DNA of 64,000 bases from Acidobacteriota bacterium (lineage in GTDB: Bacteria > Acidobacteriota > Blastocatellia > UBA7656), in the NCBI GenBank assembly GCA_016201275.1, contig JACQDB010000034.1:1-64000 (forward strand), given 5' to 3'. Made by a program: the position numbers and the translations under genes. Positions 282 to 46,038 of the stretch are shown in pieces. Position 1 is the first letter of the stretch; every line of letters starts with the position of its first letter. The notes below the pieces were generated by a model. It was given only the letters and a program-made list of their open reading frames with translations. It searched no databases and had not been told where the DNA came from.

Positions 282-1115
282 TTACCCCTGATTCGGTTCG
301 CTGCCGGGTTGATTGCCGATGGTCACGGGGTTAGGTTTGCCTTCTAAAAACGGGCTGATTAAATCGGCGAGGCGTCTTTCTTCGGCTTCGCGGCGCACCG
401 AAAAATCTATGGATTGGCGTTGCGCTTCGGTTGCTTCACTCTTCAAGGCTTCCATCTCGGCCTGCTTCTTTTTCAAATACTCCTCGACCTCTTTGGTCAG
501 TTGCTGCACCTTGTCAGTGTTGCGCTGCTCCACTTGCTGCGCTCGCTGCGCCAGCATCGCCTGATACGCATCTAACGCCCGATCACGTCGCGCGGCGTCG
601 GCAATCGGCACTTCTATGCCGATGCCTTTGGCAGACAGAGTTAAATTGACGGCGATGATTTTGACGCTCAACGGTTGATTGGCAACCATAGGATTTTCCA
701 TCAAGGTCGCCAGTTCATCAACGCTGCACGGTGTAGTAGTCACTCCTGCGTCTTTGTAAATCTGCTCGAAAGGTCTTTGCGATAAATCATCGCCCTGCTT
801 GGTTGGCACGTTGAATTTCGGCAGCGGTTCATCAGCAACCAGTTCGGCAACACGGGGGGCGGGGCGCGGCGCGCTCGGCACGGCAGAGCGCGGCACTTGC
901 GCCTGCGGTTTGGTAAATTCAGGCGGTGGCGGCGGCGGTGCGTCTTCGCCTTCTTCCGGCACGACCTTGACGAAAAAATCCATCAGCGACTTGAATGCGC
1001 CGCCGCCTTTCGGCCCGCCACCCGCGTGCGCCGATTTGCCCGTGCCTTCCGACATAGCTTCCATCTCGCGCAATATATCTTCTGTGCTTTTCGGTCTCGG
1101 TGGTTTATTCGACAT
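282..1115 (-). CDS. Proline-rich coiled-coil protein, last gene of the ABC/OmpA operon
   Basis: 277 residues with no recognised catalytic domain. The N-terminal third is low-complexity, with a run of six prolines near residue 60 followed by a Pro/Ala-rich linker. The C-terminal half (about residues 180-255) is strongly charged and rich in Glu, Gln, Lys and Arg, as expected for a coiled coil. No signal peptide or membrane segment is visible, so it is probably cytoplasmic. The ATG is preceded by GGAGGAG at good spacing. It is the last gene of a minus-strand run with an ABC importer (2178-5990) and lies 142 bp after the membrane coiled-coil gene at 1258-2148. The order suggests that the two proteins serve the transporter, perhaps as a cytoplasmic scaffold. 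That is inference from context, and I do not recognise the family. Confidence 0.7.
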   Translation of the reverse strand: MSNKPPRPKSTEDILREMEAMSEGTGKSAHAGGGPKGGGAFKSLMDFFVKVVPEEGEDAPPPPPPEFTKPQAQVPRSAVPSAPRPAPRVAELVADEPLPKFNVPTKQGDDLSQRPFEQIYKDAGVTTTPCSVDELATLMENPMVANQPLSVKIIAVNLTLSAKGIGIEVPIADAARRDRALDAYQAMLAQRAQQVEQRNTDKVQQLTKEVEEYLKKKQAEMEALKSEATEAQRQSIDFSVRREAEERRLADLISPFLEGKPNPVTIGNQPGSEPNQG

Positions 1116-1257
1116 AGCTCCTCCAGTTTTTCAAAGTAAAGGAATGTGAGAGTGAGGGAGAAGGCGAGAAAGGGAGTAGGAGAGATTTTTTATCAATCGA
1201 AAAATTCTTCATCGCATCTTCTCCCTGTCTCCCTGCCTTCCTGTTTCCTTGTCTCCC

Positions 1258-2148
1258 CTACTTCACGCGGCGCAGGTGTTCACGCGGTGGGCGGCGCGTT
1301 GCGTCATCTGCGACCGGCGCATCGGCATCAGACAAGCCTGGTTCTTCGGATGAGGCTTCAAGGGCTGAAAGATTGTCGGACTGAGTGACCAACACATCTT
1401 CGTAAGCCGAGCGAAATTCATCGCTGATGCTCAAATTGCTCAAGAGATTGTCAACCAGATCAGAGATGCCCGCGACGTTGGTGAAGGTATAGACTTCATC
1501 TTGAATCAGGCTCAAAGAATTTCTGACCACGGCGAGTCGCGCTTCGAGCAGGCGCACCAGTTCATCGAGTTTTTGAATGCGCGCCTGACGCTTCTTTAAG
1601 ATGTTCAGGTTTTGCGCCAGGGCTTGGCGCACCTGTACAGACTGCTCGCGTTCGATGGCTTTGTCGGCTTTGGCGATTTCATTGCCGAGCATGGTTTGCA
1701 GGTTGCGATAATTGCGCGACGACAACAGGTAATGAGCGCGAAGCATCTTGGCGTATTCAAGGCGAAAGGACGAAAGTTTTTCGACGATGCCGGAAAGCAT
1801 CATATTGCTGCCGGGGTCGCCCAATTCGGTCGAGCGTTTTTCAATCTCTTCGCACAAACTCCGCACCGAATGAAAGTCCTGTTGATAATTCATGGGCAGC
1901 GACAGCACGATGCTCTTTTCGGTGTCCTCTTCTTCAAGTTTGCTGTCTTTATTTTTACGGGCGCGAATGATGCGCTGCACCCGCGTGTTCTGCGCGATGA
2001 AGATGGCGGCGATTTCTCCGGCCAGCAAAAGCGGCAAAAAGCCTAAGAAATTCACGACAATCATTAAAAACGCCATCACTCCGATGTACGCCAGATTGAA
2101 GTCACTCTTTAATACTTCCTTGACATAATTGATCTCTTCATCAGCCAT
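1258..2148 (-). CDS. Membrane-anchored coiled-coil protein of the ABC/OmpA operon
   Basis: 296 residues. A hydrophobic stretch at about residues 17-53 (YIGVMAFLMIVVNFLGFLPL and onward) is long enough for two closely spaced membrane segments. The rest is hydrophilic and mostly helical, with heptad-like Leu/Arg/Glu patterns between residues 95 and 240, and a disordered acidic-to-basic tail. It starts 29 bp after the stop of the ATPase gene (2178-3086), so the two are very likely co-transcribed. I do not recognise a named family. It is probably an inner-membrane protein with a large cytoplasmic coiled-coil domain that could bind the ATPase or the next gene product. It is not a normal ABC subunit, and its fixed place behind the ATPase gene is the main functional clue. 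Confidence 0.75.
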   Translation of the reverse strand: MADEEINYVKEVLKSDFNLAYIGVMAFLMIVVNFLGFLPLLLAGEIAAIFIAQNTRVQRIIRARKNKDSKLEEEDTEKSIVLSLPMNYQQDFHSVRSLCEEIEKRSTELGDPGSNMMLSGIVEKLSSFRLEYAKMLRAHYLLSSRNYRNLQTMLGNEIAKADKAIEREQSVQVRQALAQNLNILKKRQARIQKLDELVRLLEARLAVVRNSLSLIQDEVYTFTNVAGISDLVDNLLSNLSISDEFRSAYEDVLVTQSDNLSALEASSEEPGLSDADAPVADDATRRPPREHLRRVK

Positions 2149-2177
2149 AATGTTTTCTTCTGAAGGGTTGCGTTGCC

Positions 2178-3086
2178 TTACAATTTCGGAAACTCAATCA
2201 GTTTAATCTCTTTGCGGATTTCGGCAAAGCGCGGCAAGTCTTCGGCCTCCGCCAAATTGGTGTGAAAGGCTATGCCTTCCTGCATCAGATCGTATTCTTT
2301 CATCACGCGAGAGCCGGGTATCGCTTTGCCCTCTTCGTTGCGTTCGCGTCCCAGCAGATAAATGTGATTGGAGATCGCCAGCGCCGAGGTGATGTCGTGG
2401 GTGATGATGATAAAGGTATTGAGCGTGTGTTGATTGGCGATGCGGCTAATCAGCTTGATCACATTCATGATGTTGACCGGGTCGAGGCCGGAAAATGGTT
2501 CGTCGAGAATAATGAAATGACGTTCTTTCATTAACTGCTGTAGGATGGCAACGCGCTGGCGCTGTCCGCCCGACAGTTGCACAGGCCACGCCAGTCCCTG
2601 TTTGACCAGATCGAATTCATCCAAATAATGCAGGGCTTTTTCTTTCGCCGCCGCTTTGCTCATCCCTGCGTTGAGGGCTGGAACCATCAAATTATTCAAG
2701 ACATTCAAATCTTCAAAGAGCGGATATTTTTGAAAGACCACGCCCACGTCGCCAATTTCTACCGCACGCAAGCCTTTGCCGTTGGTAATCAACACACAAC
2801 CGGAGGTTGGCGCATCAAGGCCGGCGATGAGTCTGAGCGCCGTGGTTTTGCCTGCGCCGGAGGGGCCGAGCAGACTGACGATCTGGGGTTTGTCTTTGAT
2901 GTTTTTGATGGTGAACGACAGATTTTTCAAGGCGACAAAGGTCGTGCCGTCGTTCATCAGAAATTCTTTGCAAACATCTTCAAGCGTCAGCAGCGGTTCC
3001 AGCAAAGTCACGCCATTGACCAGAGGCCCTTCGATGCAAGCGTTATCACCCTTGGCCGTTTCGGGTTGCGGTTGGTTGTCGTTCAT
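2178..3086 (-). CDS. ABC transporter ATP-binding protein (nitrate/sulfonate/taurine type)
   Basis: Cytoplasmic ATPase subunit of the importer encoded here. Walker A is LLGPSGAGKTTALR (about residues 72-85), the Q-loop is VVFQKYPLF, the signature is LSGGQRQRVA, and Walker B is FIILDEPFSGLDP, followed by an H-loop in the IIITHD context. This layout is typical of the NrtD/SsuB/TauB group. At about 302 residues it is longer than the usual 250-270, with extra residues at both ends. The ATG at 3086 overlaps the TGA stop of the permease gene (shared A of TGATG), so translation is probably coupled. An in-frame TTG one codon upstream is less likely. Together with the permease it would form the transport core; the substrate cannot be told from the sequence. 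Confidence 0.93.
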   Translation of the reverse strand: MNDNQPQPETAKGDNACIEGPLVNGVTLLEPLLTLEDVCKEFLMNDGTTFVALKNLSFTIKNIKDKPQIVSLLGPSGAGKTTALRLIAGLDAPTSGCVLITNGKGLRAVEIGDVGVVFQKYPLFEDLNVLNNLMVPALNAGMSKAAAKEKALHYLDEFDLVKQGLAWPVQLSGGQRQRVAILQQLMKERHFIILDEPFSGLDPVNIMNVIKLISRIANQHTLNTFIIITHDITSALAISNHIYLLGRERNEEGKAIPGSRVMKEYDLMQEGIAFHTNLAEAEDLPRFAEIRKEIKLIEFPKL

Positions 3087-3898
3087 CAAGCCCTCTCGGC
3101 AATCACGCTGTAGGGAAACAGCAATCGTTTGAGTAATACAAAGAGTCCGTCTTCGAGGATCGCAATCACGCCGATGATGATGAGGTAGGCATAAACTTCG
3201 GCGAGTTGATTGGTGGCGTTGTAGGCGAAAAGCTGCGCCCCGATGCCGCCTTCGGTGCGATTCGAGGCTTCAATCATAGGAATCATCACCCAGCCCATCG
3301 CCGCATTTTGCGCCACCATATCAATCATCTGCGGCAAGTTGGGGCGCACCACTACGCTGTAAAAAACCTGCCAGTCGTTATAGCCCAAGACCCGCGCCAG
3401 TTCGTATTTCAGATTCGGTATAGATTCGATGACAGCGGTCATGCTGGTCACTAAAAAGAACGACATTCCAGCGGTCAGCATCGCCACTTTCATAGGCCAG
3501 CCAATGGTGAACAAGGTCAAAAAGACCAGATAGAAGCCGATGATGGGAATGTAGCGCAACCACTGCACGATTTTGTTGAAGGGTTGCAGGATGGGCAAGA
3601 TGCTGAGGTAGGAAATGAGCAGCGACAGAAGGGCCGAATAGAGCAAGCCGACGAGGTTGAGTTTCAGCGTCGTGTAAACATTATAGACAAGGCCGCCGCT
3701 GCCTTGGGTGTTATACATTTTGCCGAACGCCTGCACCACCTCGAAAGGGTTGGGCAGCGAGGGAATCGGGTTGATGAACCAAACCAGTAAAAAGAGCGCC
3801 AACCAGATCAGTAATAGACTCGACCGCGCCAAGGCTCCGACCTGCCCATAGACCGTGAGGATATGGCGAAAAGAAGTTTTGGATGTTTTCTCAGGCAT
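3086..3898 (-). CDS. ABC transporter permease (SsuC/TauC-like)
   Basis: 270 residues with about six membrane segments, the first at residues 26-42 (LLLIWLALFLLVWFI). An EAA-type coupling loop (ELARVLGYNDWQVFYSVVVR, then PNLP) lies around residues 170-195, matching the binding-protein-dependent permease fold. It is the inner-membrane channel for the ATPase encoded immediately after it, with overlapping stop and start codons. Upstream, a 304-bp gap that holds a family C repeat separates it from the binding-protein gene. The permease is therefore in the same orientation and context as its binding protein but not tightly packed with it. Confidence 0.92.
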   Translation of the reverse strand: MPEKTSKTSFRHILTVYGQVGALARSSLLLIWLALFLLVWFINPIPSLPNPFEVVQAFGKMYNTQGSGGLVYNVYTTLKLNLVGLLYSALLSLLISYLSILPILQPFNKIVQWLRYIPIIGFYLVFLTLFTIGWPMKVAMLTAGMSFFLVTSMTAVIESIPNLKYELARVLGYNDWQVFYSVVVRPNLPQMIDMVAQNAAMGWVMIPMIEASNRTEGGIGAQLFAYNATNQLAEVYAYLIIIGVIAILEDGLFVLLKRLLFPYSVIAERA

Positions 3899-3995
3899 AA
3901 GAAAATTTATGGAAGCGTGGTTAAAAATTCATCAGGCAACAAGACCTGAATCACAGGCCCTTATTTTTTATCCATCATTTTTGATACATCTGGTT

Positions 3996-4159
3996 CGGGC
4001 GGCTATGCCGCTTTGATGTGCGGAAAGGCTTGGCCTTTCCGTGAGACTTGCCGTTTCATTCTTGCGGCGACGCCGCCAATTGGGGCGTCGCCGCGCAAGA
4101 AAAAAACGCCGCTCGGTGAGTCACAGACTCACCGCACATCAAAGCGGCACAGCCGCCCG
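3996..4159. repeat. Family C inverted-repeat element (copy C0), inside the ABC/OmpA operon
   Basis: A 164-bp non-coding element with long, nearly perfect inverted ends. The left end reads CGGGCGGCTATGCCGCTTTG and continues with ATGTGCGG; the right end is its reverse complement apart from one base. Inside is a second palindrome built on GCGGCGACGCC. Related copies lie at 6256-6509 and 45871-46038. It separates the binding-protein gene from the permease gene and could act as an attenuator or mRNA-stabilising hairpin, which is inference. Confidence 0.85.
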
Positions 4160-4202
4160 ATCATCGCACTTGCATCATCTGCCATATTTCTCCCAACTAC
4201 AC

Positions 4203-5990
4203 CTATTTCAAAATGATTACGACGCGGCGATTGGCGGCCTTTTCCTTGTCGTCCTTGTTGGTGTTGCCCGGCAGAGGCCGATAGGGGCCATAGCCTTCTA
4301 TGGAGTCTTTACGATTCTCATTAATGTTGATGCCCGTCGTGTCGGAATCTTTCAACCATTGCCACACCGCTTTGGCGCGCTCCTGCGACAAGCGCAAATT
4401 CGTTCCGACATCGCCAACATTATCGGTGTGGCCTTCAAGAATCACTTTGGTATCAGTGGCGCGAATCAGCAGGCTGCGAATCTCTTGCAGCACCGCCAAC
4501 TCCGAAGGTTTGATTTTCGCCGAGCCGCTGTCAAAGCTGATTTGATAATTGGCTTTGACGACGGTTCCCTGATTTTGCCCCTGCTCGAACTTCGCCGTAT
4601 AGACGCCTGTGCTGCTGGCCTCGTCGGTGATCTCGCGTATGAAACTTAAATCCACCACCTGATCCACCGGCACAAAGCTGTCGAGCCAATTCGGCAACAG
4701 CTTTCTGACGCGCTTCGCGTGATCGGTGTAGGTGACGCCAAAGATGCTGTCGGCGATGCCTCTGCCGCTGTCCATACCGAAAAGGTGGCGCACTTCGGCG
4801 ATGTTGTTGACCCGCGAACCGCCCAGCGATACGCCGTTTTCCACCACCGGATTAAAATAGCGCGCCCAGAATTCGCCGCCCTTACCGGCCAGATTAAAGA
4901 CCACGGCATTTAACACCGCGACGCGATTGCGGAAATAGTCCGGATCGTTTTTGATCTTTTCATTCGAGCGCGCAATGCAGCGCAACAGCGTCTTAACATA
5001 GTCGCGGTGTTGATTCATCCAGTCCTGATTGCCGAATAAGATGTGCGGCATCATGTAGCTGTATTCACGGGTCGAAACAATCTTCTGCAATTTTTCGCTT
5101 TTGCCTTTATAGGTCACGTTGGGGCGACCTTTGGCCGCCATCACATCGCCCGGCGTCCACGTCGCCACCGCATTAATTTCAACGGCTTCGGTTTTGCCGG
5201 TCGCTTTGTTGCGAAGATTGACCGAAGCATTTTGGGTGAACTTGGTTGCCGCTTCGATGTGATCGGAAGCGTTGACGAAATTAATCGCATCCGGGTCATA
5301 GACCTGCTCATCGGCATTGACGGGAATCTGATTGTCTGCAGCCCAGTTGACCGTGACGTTCCAATCGCAATACGGCACGGCGGTGACCACCAAAGCACCG
5401 CGCGCCAGTTGCGGATCCGCTTTCCAGGATTCCGGCCCCATCAAACAATCTTCGCCAAACGAATAGCCGCTCGACCATATGACTTTTGCTTTGGTGCCGC
5501 GCAATAATTTATTCGCGCCGTTGATGTCAACCGCCGATTGATCGCCGGTGGTGGTGACAAACTGCATCTGGCCGGTGGCCAGCGCCTGCACCTGTTTGGA
5601 GGTATCGTTTTCGACGATCAATTCGGTATTGGTGATGCCGGATTGACACAAACAACTATCGGTGTGGTCGCCGGATTTGCCGGGGCCGCCCACGGCGTCA
5701 ATCAAGCCGCTGACCGTCTGCCATGTCCATATGCCGATCTTGACCGGCGGATTATCGGTGGTGCGCGTCGGCGGCGAAACCGTAGAAGGCGGCAGATTGC
5801 CGACATCAATTTTATTGAGGTCAACCGGTTTATCAAGCAATTCGCCCGCCTTGTTGCTATTGCGGTTGCTGTTTGGACTGAGCTTGTCGAAAACCCCTAA
5901 CTGCTTGAGGCTGACCCACACCAGACCGGCAATTAAAAGAACAATCAGAATGATGGCTCCGGGGCCTAACTGTACACGACCTATTCTCAT
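4203..5990 (-). CDS. Membrane-anchored ABC substrate-binding protein fused to an OmpA domain
   Basis: 595 residues. An N-terminal signal anchor (GAIILIVLLIAGLVWVSL, about residues 10-28) has no clear cleavage site. A Ser/Asn-rich linker leads to a periplasmic binding-protein domain of the NMT1/taurine/nitrate type (about residues 75-420). The C-terminal 120 residues are an OmpA-like peptidoglycan-binding domain: ISFDSGSAKIKPSE, LEGHTDNVGD, NLRLSQERAKAV and an ANRRV end. The ATG at 5990 follows AGGAGA at good spacing; an in-frame start ten codons upstream is less likely. The downstream genes encode the matching permease and ATPase. The architecture implies a binding protein fixed to the inner membrane at one end and to the cell wall at the other, instead of a free periplasmic protein or lipoprotein. 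The substrate is unknown. Confidence 0.9.
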   Translation of the reverse strand: MRIGRVQLGPGAIILIVLLIAGLVWVSLKQLGVFDKLSPNSNRNSNKAGELLDKPVDLNKIDVGNLPPSTVSPPTRTTDNPPVKIGIWTWQTVSGLIDAVGGPGKSGDHTDSCLCQSGITNTELIVENDTSKQVQALATGQMQFVTTTGDQSAVDINGANKLLRGTKAKVIWSSGYSFGEDCLMGPESWKADPQLARGALVVTAVPYCDWNVTVNWAADNQIPVNADEQVYDPDAINFVNASDHIEAATKFTQNASVNLRNKATGKTEAVEINAVATWTPGDVMAAKGRPNVTYKGKSEKLQKIVSTREYSYMMPHILFGNQDWMNQHRDYVKTLLRCIARSNEKIKNDPDYFRNRVAVLNAVVFNLAGKGGEFWARYFNPVVENGVSLGGSRVNNIAEVRHLFGMDSGRGIADSIFGVTYTDHAKRVRKLLPNWLDSFVPVDQVVDLSFIREITDEASSTGVYTAKFEQGQNQGTVVKANYQISFDSGSAKIKPSELAVLQEIRSLLIRATDTKVILEGHTDNVGDVGTNLRLSQERAKAVWQWLKDSDTTGININENRKDSIEGYGPYRPLPGNTNKDDKEKAANRRVVIILK

Positions 5991-6255: not shown

Positions 6256-6509
6256 AACTACCCAGCCTGGTTGTGAAAGTTGAACGCTGGGCGGCGGTGC
6301 CGCTTTGAGGTGCGGAGAGTCCGAGACTCTCCGCGAGGCTGTTCCTCCTTTTTCGCGGCTCTGCCGCATCGGAGGCCGCGCCTCAGAAAAACTTGGAGGG
6401 CGAAGCCCAAGGACGGCGTAGCCGCGAGAGTGGGGAGCATAGCTTGCGGAAAGGCTGCGCCTTTCCGCACCTCAAAGCGGCACCGCCGCAATCGCTGACT
6501 GGGTAGTTA
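6256..6509. repeat. Family C inverted-repeat element (copy C1)
   Basis: The core at 6289-6489 has ends GGGCGGCGGTGCCGCTTTGA and GGTGCGGA against their reverse complement. Outside it lie TAACTACCCAG (left) and CTGGGTAGTTA (right), again inverted, so the whole element probably spans 6256-6509. The interior carries more small palindromes and is larger than in C0 and C2. Its right-hand TA is the left border of element A1. Confidence 0.8.
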
Positions 6510-45870: not shown

Positions 45871-46038
45871 GTTGGGCGGCTGTGCCGCTTTGATGTGCGG
45901 AAAGGCTCGGCCTTTCCGTGAGAGGTCTTTCAATTCTTGCGGCTACACCGCCAACTGGCGGCGTAGCCGCAGGGAGGATCGGCTAGGCTTCCGGCGAGGC
46001 ACAGCCCGCGCCGCACATCAAAGCGGCACAGCCGCAAC
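45871..46038. repeat. Family C inverted-repeat element (copy C2)
   Basis: About 168 bp with inverted ends GGCTGTGCCGCTTTGATGTG and CACATCAAAGCGGCACAGCC. An interior palindrome is built on GGCTACACCGCC and GGCGGCGTAGCC. Closest to copy C0 (3996-4159). Confidence 0.85.

Follow-up and report, generated by a model that had tools for sequence, protein, structure and literature searches.

Why an ABC transporter should be encoded together with two additional helical proteins, and with a binding protein that appears to be fixed both in the inner membrane and on the cell wall, is the question posed by the first genes of the window (the whole stretch of 64,000 nucleotides analysed, C73:1-64000 in a 6.8 Mb genome). 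All five open reading frames that the initial annotation had described between 282 and 5990 are present on the minus strand, and the one-base overlap of the permease and ATPase genes is seen as TGATG when the ATPase is started at its ATG. The genes are as follows:

4203-5990, minus strand: SBP-OmpA fusion gene (open reading frame of 595 aa)
3086-3898, minus strand: type I ABC permease gene, TauC/SsuC/NrtB-like (270 aa, EAA-like loop present)
2178-3086 from its ATG, minus strand: ABC ATPase gene (intact Walker A, signature, Walker B and H-loop)
1258-2148, minus strand: CC296 gene (all-helical product; membrane hairpin at the N-terminus, helical domain predicted to be cytoplasmic)
282-1115, minus strand: CC277 gene (soluble product; short motif of amphipathic character, linker rich in Pro, helical domain, coiled coil)

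The reading we favor, tentatively and as somewhat less than probable, is that these genes encode an ATP-driven envelope-maintenance machine, in which sensing or uptake by a peptidoglycan-bound receptor would be coupled to membrane maintenance of the PspA/ESCRT-III type.

The five genes are a real conserved unit, far beyond chance. Of 57 other genomes of the class, 11 encode a full-length SBP orthologue (68-82% identity), and among the class relatives examined seven (L033-L038 and L042) have the five genes colinear. Scanning species genomes with the SBP domain only recovered 143 relatives (80 kept), and the family is found in Acidobacteriota, Myxococcota, Armatimonadota, Abditibacteriota, and Bacteroidota. 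With a simple ORF caller and iterative profiles, the complete set was present in 32 of 73 cellular loci, the order being SBP-permease-ATPase-CC296-CC277 in most cellular loci. Single-linkage clustering of all ORFs from 178 neighborhoods returned only the five families as widely common to viral and cellular loci. The two coiled-coil genes thus stay with the transporter, and the proposal that they belong to the same system stands on this point. Where the locus is split, its parts have moved and were never lost: G033 and G056 keep CC296-CC277-SBP together with the permease-ATPase pair elsewhere in the genome, G029 keeps SBP-permease-ATPase together with the CC296-CC277 pair elsewhere, and every part searched for turned up. 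The co-occurrence of the five genes across phyla and in phages supports one machine, and the persistence of the part sets at split loci likewise counts in favor of the envelope-maintenance reading. One relative, L039, has a TerB-domain gene as a neighbor. A relation to toxic-anion (TelA/Ter) systems was considered and set aside, as neither the scans, which showed no TelA family, nor the literature gave useful support.

The receptor has anchor, binding domain, and OmpA domain in one chain, and this arrangement, described in the initial annotation, is kept across the family:

5901..5969, minus strand: predicted transmembrane anchor of SBP-OmpA, about residues 8-30 (hydrophobic segment and model helix)
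4671..5753, minus strand: substrate-binding (NMT1-like) domain, about residues 80-440 (SxGED and WTPGD motifs)
4206..4559, minus strand: OmpA-like peptidoglycan-binding domain, residues 478-595 (matched by profiles of Pfam and PDB)
4422-4424, minus strand: D523 of the OmpA domain (invariant in full-length members tested)
4377-4379, minus strand: R538 of the OmpA domain (invariant in full-length members tested)

The N-terminus contains one hydrophobic segment (residues 8-26) in which no lipobox was seen, and the AlphaFold2 model (pLDDT 87.8, pTM 0.83) has a helix at residues 10-30 and a confident alpha/beta domain with pLDDT mostly >90. The assignment of the binding domain to the NMT1 type is weak for the window protein itself (E 0.018, below the Pfam cut-off) and is clearer in L049, a full-length member from a 735 kb phage that matches NMT1_2 at 7e-10; a profile comparison of the window SBP with L049 reached only 33.6%, with the alignment in register. 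The SxGED and WTPGD motifs are conserved in 48-55 of the 52 viral and 55 cellular SBP members. Searching the SBP domain against PDB sequences gave no match, and no ligand could be inferred from family models, the closest NCBIfam models scoring far below their cut-offs. The OmpA domain matches Pfam with an E of 1.3e-12. Its D523/R538 pair, which we equate with the Asp/Arg pair that grips the peptide moiety of peptidoglycan in A. baumannii OmpA, is retained in all non-redundant members (52/52 viral, 55/55 cellular); the loss of these residues that would have spoken against the initial annotation is not seen. This retention counts toward an envelope machine. It would also suit the import or sensing of cell-wall material such as muropeptides, as had been proposed for this locus, but OmpA domains serve as wall anchors in many unrelated proteins, and no recycling genes are conserved nearby in the 178 neighborhoods. 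The SBP fold class is not known to bind muropeptides, which further counts against such a role, and we consider it very improbable.

The permease falls 1.1 bits below the cut-off of Pfam BPD_transp_1 (1.5e-5) and also matches NCBIfam models of the TauC/SsuC/NtrB type, and the ATPase matches Pfam ABC_tran at 1.6e-24, with its motifs retained almost without exception across the family by motif counts. We count the retention of the ATPase motifs in favor of an ATP-driven envelope machine, but intact motifs suit plain transport equally, which counts against it. A serious rival is an importer of the ordinary NitT/TauT class, in which the tether prevents loss of the binding protein, the helical proteins regulate or place the transporter, and the phage copy is an auxiliary metabolic set that feeds the cell. 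The intact permease and ATPase motifs agree with this reading, as do the closest NCBIfam models of the transporter, which are of the NitT/TauT/phosphonate type, the match of a family member to NMT1_2 and, weakly, to a nitrate-transport-type SBP structure, and the separability of the ABC pair from the CC pair in Bacteroidota and Blastocatellia. However, the CC genes of G033 and G056 remain with SBP-OmpA although the permease-ATPase pair has moved, no metabolic enzyme gene is conserved alongside the set in the 178 neighborhoods, and neither the coupling to PspA and AAA+ proteins described below nor the conserved OmpA domain is expected of a simple importer. We regard plain import as unlikely, while weighing it seriously beside envelope maintenance.

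The set extends beyond bacteria, and huge phages carry all five genes. A viral scan with a Blastocatellia-heavy alignment found nothing; the viral matches came from patterns of a balanced SBP-only alignment, and this SBP-domain-only scan recovered 83 relatives in IMG/VR (80 kept). The complete set was present in 64 of the 79 IMG/VR loci with a callable SBP and in both of the two GenBank phage loci. Many of the contigs are cut or are near-copies, and the non-redundant SBP genes number 52 viral and 55 cellular. Nearly all viral loci have the order CC277-CC296-SBP-permease-ATPase, with a phage counterpart in the CC296 slot. Terminase was found on 12 of 30 viral records and tail sheath on 5. On nine records, LR756500 (462 kb), LR756501 (735 kb), and seven from IMG/VR of 135-369 kb, the set is accompanied by portal (E <1e-70), Gp23 capsid, and terminase, all of the T4 type (Portal_T4, Gp23); three further viral records have terminase alone. 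Several large IMG/VR records, putatively of phages, gave no portal, capsid, or terminase match. An SBP tree from a rapid method requires five changes of the virus label; one of its clades, of 28 rows, is entirely viral and takes in the verified T4-type records together with LR756500. The protein of LR756501 sits on a very long branch, and its placement is unsure. The IMG/VR record L131 was not counted as phage because it clusters with Armatimonadota and lacks phage genes; it is probably bacterial. The complete set in giant bacterial viruses suggests that these phages bring their own machine for care of the host envelope. The phage set could instead serve takeover or superinfection exclusion by altering the host envelope against other phages, the bacterial copies being related envelope-stress sets. 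This would fit a set that is widespread in huge phages with its gene order kept, and the main text of the huge-phage study mentions membrane and surface proteins that possibly affect infection by other phages, with the set unnamed. The bacterial set is, however, at least equally diverse and widespread, and lies outside defense-like contexts, and exclusion strikes us as improbable.

In the envelope-maintenance reading, the two helical proteins would form the assembly that acts on the membrane:

1990..2103, minus strand: CC296 membrane hairpin, helices at residues 16-31 and 34-53 (AlphaFold2 helices, hydrophobic segment 24-42)
951..995, minus strand: FKSLMDFFVKVVPEE motif of CC277 (N-terminal sequences compared)

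Neither protein matched a Pfam family, and two protein families of the set are absent from both Pfam and PHROGs. In most CC277 members, judged by eye, the amphipathic motif comes first and leads into acidic residues and a linker rich in Pro, and phage copies have a similar N-terminal motif, such as GFKDLFIVSDE. The bacterial and phage profiles match at 99.7% (E 2e-26) and their members also overlap, indicating from sequence that CC277 of bacteria and phages is one homologous family. CC296 is modeled by AlphaFold2 as all-helical with a membrane hairpin (pLDDT 81), and for the window type no signal to PspA or Snf7 was detectable with Pfam, PDB profiles, or hhalign. The phage membrane protein occupies the same slot in the locus, and both proteins have N-terminal membrane segments; homology between them is not claimed because profile comparisons gave 18% and then 8%. 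The phage protein does, by profile comparison, resemble PspA: it aligns with the PspA profile at 90.9% (E 1.2e-6, 77 columns) over a stretch that includes a conserved Asp-Pro, and the reversed control gave 0.5%. Sub-threshold Pfam PspA_IM30 matches were found in 4 of 35 members (best 5e-7), and the phage membrane-protein profile retrieves two PspA proteins from outside its build set (2e-7 and 4e-7), the PspA of the window genome being found at 2e-7.

Gene context and sequence together point to a tie between the set and PspA. The operon of some Acidobacteriota and Abditibacteriota includes, beyond the five genes, those for PspA (Pfam 6e-18) and for an AAA+ ATPase, and G029 has PspA, a CC296 paralogue, and AAA+ in one operon. 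Neither PspA nor AAA+ is present next to the set within the window. The set reaches the contig edge at which the window begins, so a further gene downstream of CC277 is possible, but the idea of a PspA gene hidden past that edge was dropped because PspA and AAA+ lie on other contigs of the genome, with no end overlap found: C75 has PspA adjoining a further gene of the CC296 family, and C52 has the AAA+ homologue. We count the PspA/AAA+ operons and the PspA-like phage protein in favor of an envelope machine; the window CC296, with no detectable similarity to PspA or Snf7 and low profile scores against the phage protein, and the lack of an adjacent PspA or AAA+ gene count against it.

Taking these observations together, we infer that the five products work as one complex, with the receptor stretched from membrane to wall, a helical cytoplasmic assembly under control of the ABC cycle, and a use in phages that keeps or changes the host envelope; our AlphaFold2 models, of SBP-OmpA and CC296, are of single chains. 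In such a complex, an inner-membrane ABC transporter of type I would partner a receptor fastened at each end: its N-terminal helix would sit in the inner membrane, and its OmpA domain would hold on to peptidoglycan. On the cytoplasmic face of the membrane, soluble CC277 would assemble with a helical protein anchored by a hairpin, either CC296 or, in phages and Bacteroidota, a PspA-like protein. The ABC cycle could relay to this assembly the binding of a ligand or an altered spacing of membrane and wall, and the assembly might then stabilize or remodel the membrane in the manner of PspA/ESCRT-III proteins. Huge phages may use the set to keep the envelope of a long-infected cell intact. A stronger version holds that the set is not mainly a transporter: powered by the ABC ATPase, a PspA/ESCRT-III-like layer beneath the membrane would assemble and disassemble on a cue from the membrane-to-wall receptor, and T4-type huge phages would carry the whole machine to protect or remodel the host envelope; we think this rather unlikely. 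Control of the host envelope by phages through a PspA-like membrane protein, an ABC transporter, and a receptor bound to the wall would be of a new kind.

Part of this has a precedent. Ravi et al. 2024 (PMC11237479) mention, in a few sentences, bacterial operons with PspA, TM-Snf7, AAA+, an ABC ATPase, a permease, and a PBPB-OmpA protein (example OGG56892.1), and suggest a link between membrane remodeling and solute transport. That they draw a similar link for bacterial operons counts in favor of the envelope-maintenance reading. The combination recurs here in Acidobacteriota and Abditibacteriota loci, and the window shares with those operons the ABC ATPase, permease, and SBP-OmpA in one operon; their TM-Snf7 may correspond to CC296. 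The window set differs from them in having no adjacent PspA or AAA+ and in containing the CC277 family. The initial annotation's description of the system as undescribed is thus right only in part, because the bacterial operon type is mentioned in that paper, whereas the phage set and CC277 appear new. The main text of Ravi et al. has no match for 'bacteriophage' or 'viruses', and that of the huge-phage study mentions neither transporters nor OmpA. Judged against the main texts of openly licensed papers, carriage of the complete set by phages, CC277 as a family, the split loci, and the PspA-like domain of the phage membrane protein all appear new. What emerges is a defined five-gene envelope unit whose parts are kept together across several bacterial phyla, and which occurs in huge phages including one of 735 kb, the largest genome described in the huge-phage study. 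The set would make testable why PspA-type remodeling is linked to solute transport, a question that Ravi et al. raise.

Several known systems resemble the set in part. It shares its permease and ATPase type, and perhaps its SBP fold class, with NitT/TauT importers (NrtABCD, SsuABC, TauABC), but differs in a binding protein that is anchored in the membrane and carries an OmpA domain, and in having two extra helical proteins. With the classical Psp system (PspA/Vipp1) it shares a PspA partner in some operons and the PspA-like stretch of the phage membrane protein, whereas it has no PspB, PspC, or PspF, and an ABC transporter and a receptor bound to the wall are among its parts. MotB, TssL, Pal, and YiaD likewise join an inner-membrane or lipid anchor to an OmpA peptidoglycan-binding domain; in SBP-OmpA, unlike in these proteins, a substrate-binding domain lies between the two.

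Small extra genes occur within the set in some Blastocatellia-type relatives, where a small protein family separates the ATPase gene from that of CC296, the helical protein with an N-terminal membrane hairpin, at these loci:

L033:10565-10951, small extra protein gene in the ATPase/CC296 gap
L034:2910-3638, small extra protein gene in the same gap
L038:8259-8705, small extra protein gene in the same gap

Its members are 128-148 aa long where cleanly called; the family has no Pfam match and is absent from the window. In the class relative G029, the gene immediately after that of the ATPase encodes a protein that matches TerB and DUF697 (L039:9909-10847). In other phyla, the set is adjoined by a second, membrane-anchored binding protein (SBP_bac_11) at Armatimonadota/Abditibacteriota loci L079, L093 and L123, and in Xanthocytophaga a membrane-anchored Ppx/GppA-like protein splits the PspA-like gene from the SBP-OmpA gene (L120:6613-7644). 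On contig C75 of the window's own genome, a second gene of the CC296 family comes after a PspA gene (L214:480-2235).

The phage version of the set is present at L112 and L114, from gp2 Acidobacteria MAGs. Both were placed inside a viral clade and may be contigs of phage origin that binning assigned to a bacterial genome.

Within the window, the SBP-OmpA gene is flanked by paired palindromic repeats, and repeat sites lie at:

3995-4160, palindromic repeat site
6289-6489, palindromic repeat site
45898-45918, palindromic repeat site

The repeat arms are 43-62 nt long with 79-86% complementarity, and the core CGGAAAGGCTTGGCCTTTCCG was observed in 3 places, against 0 expected by chance. The repeats flanking the gene look like REP/BIME-type elements.
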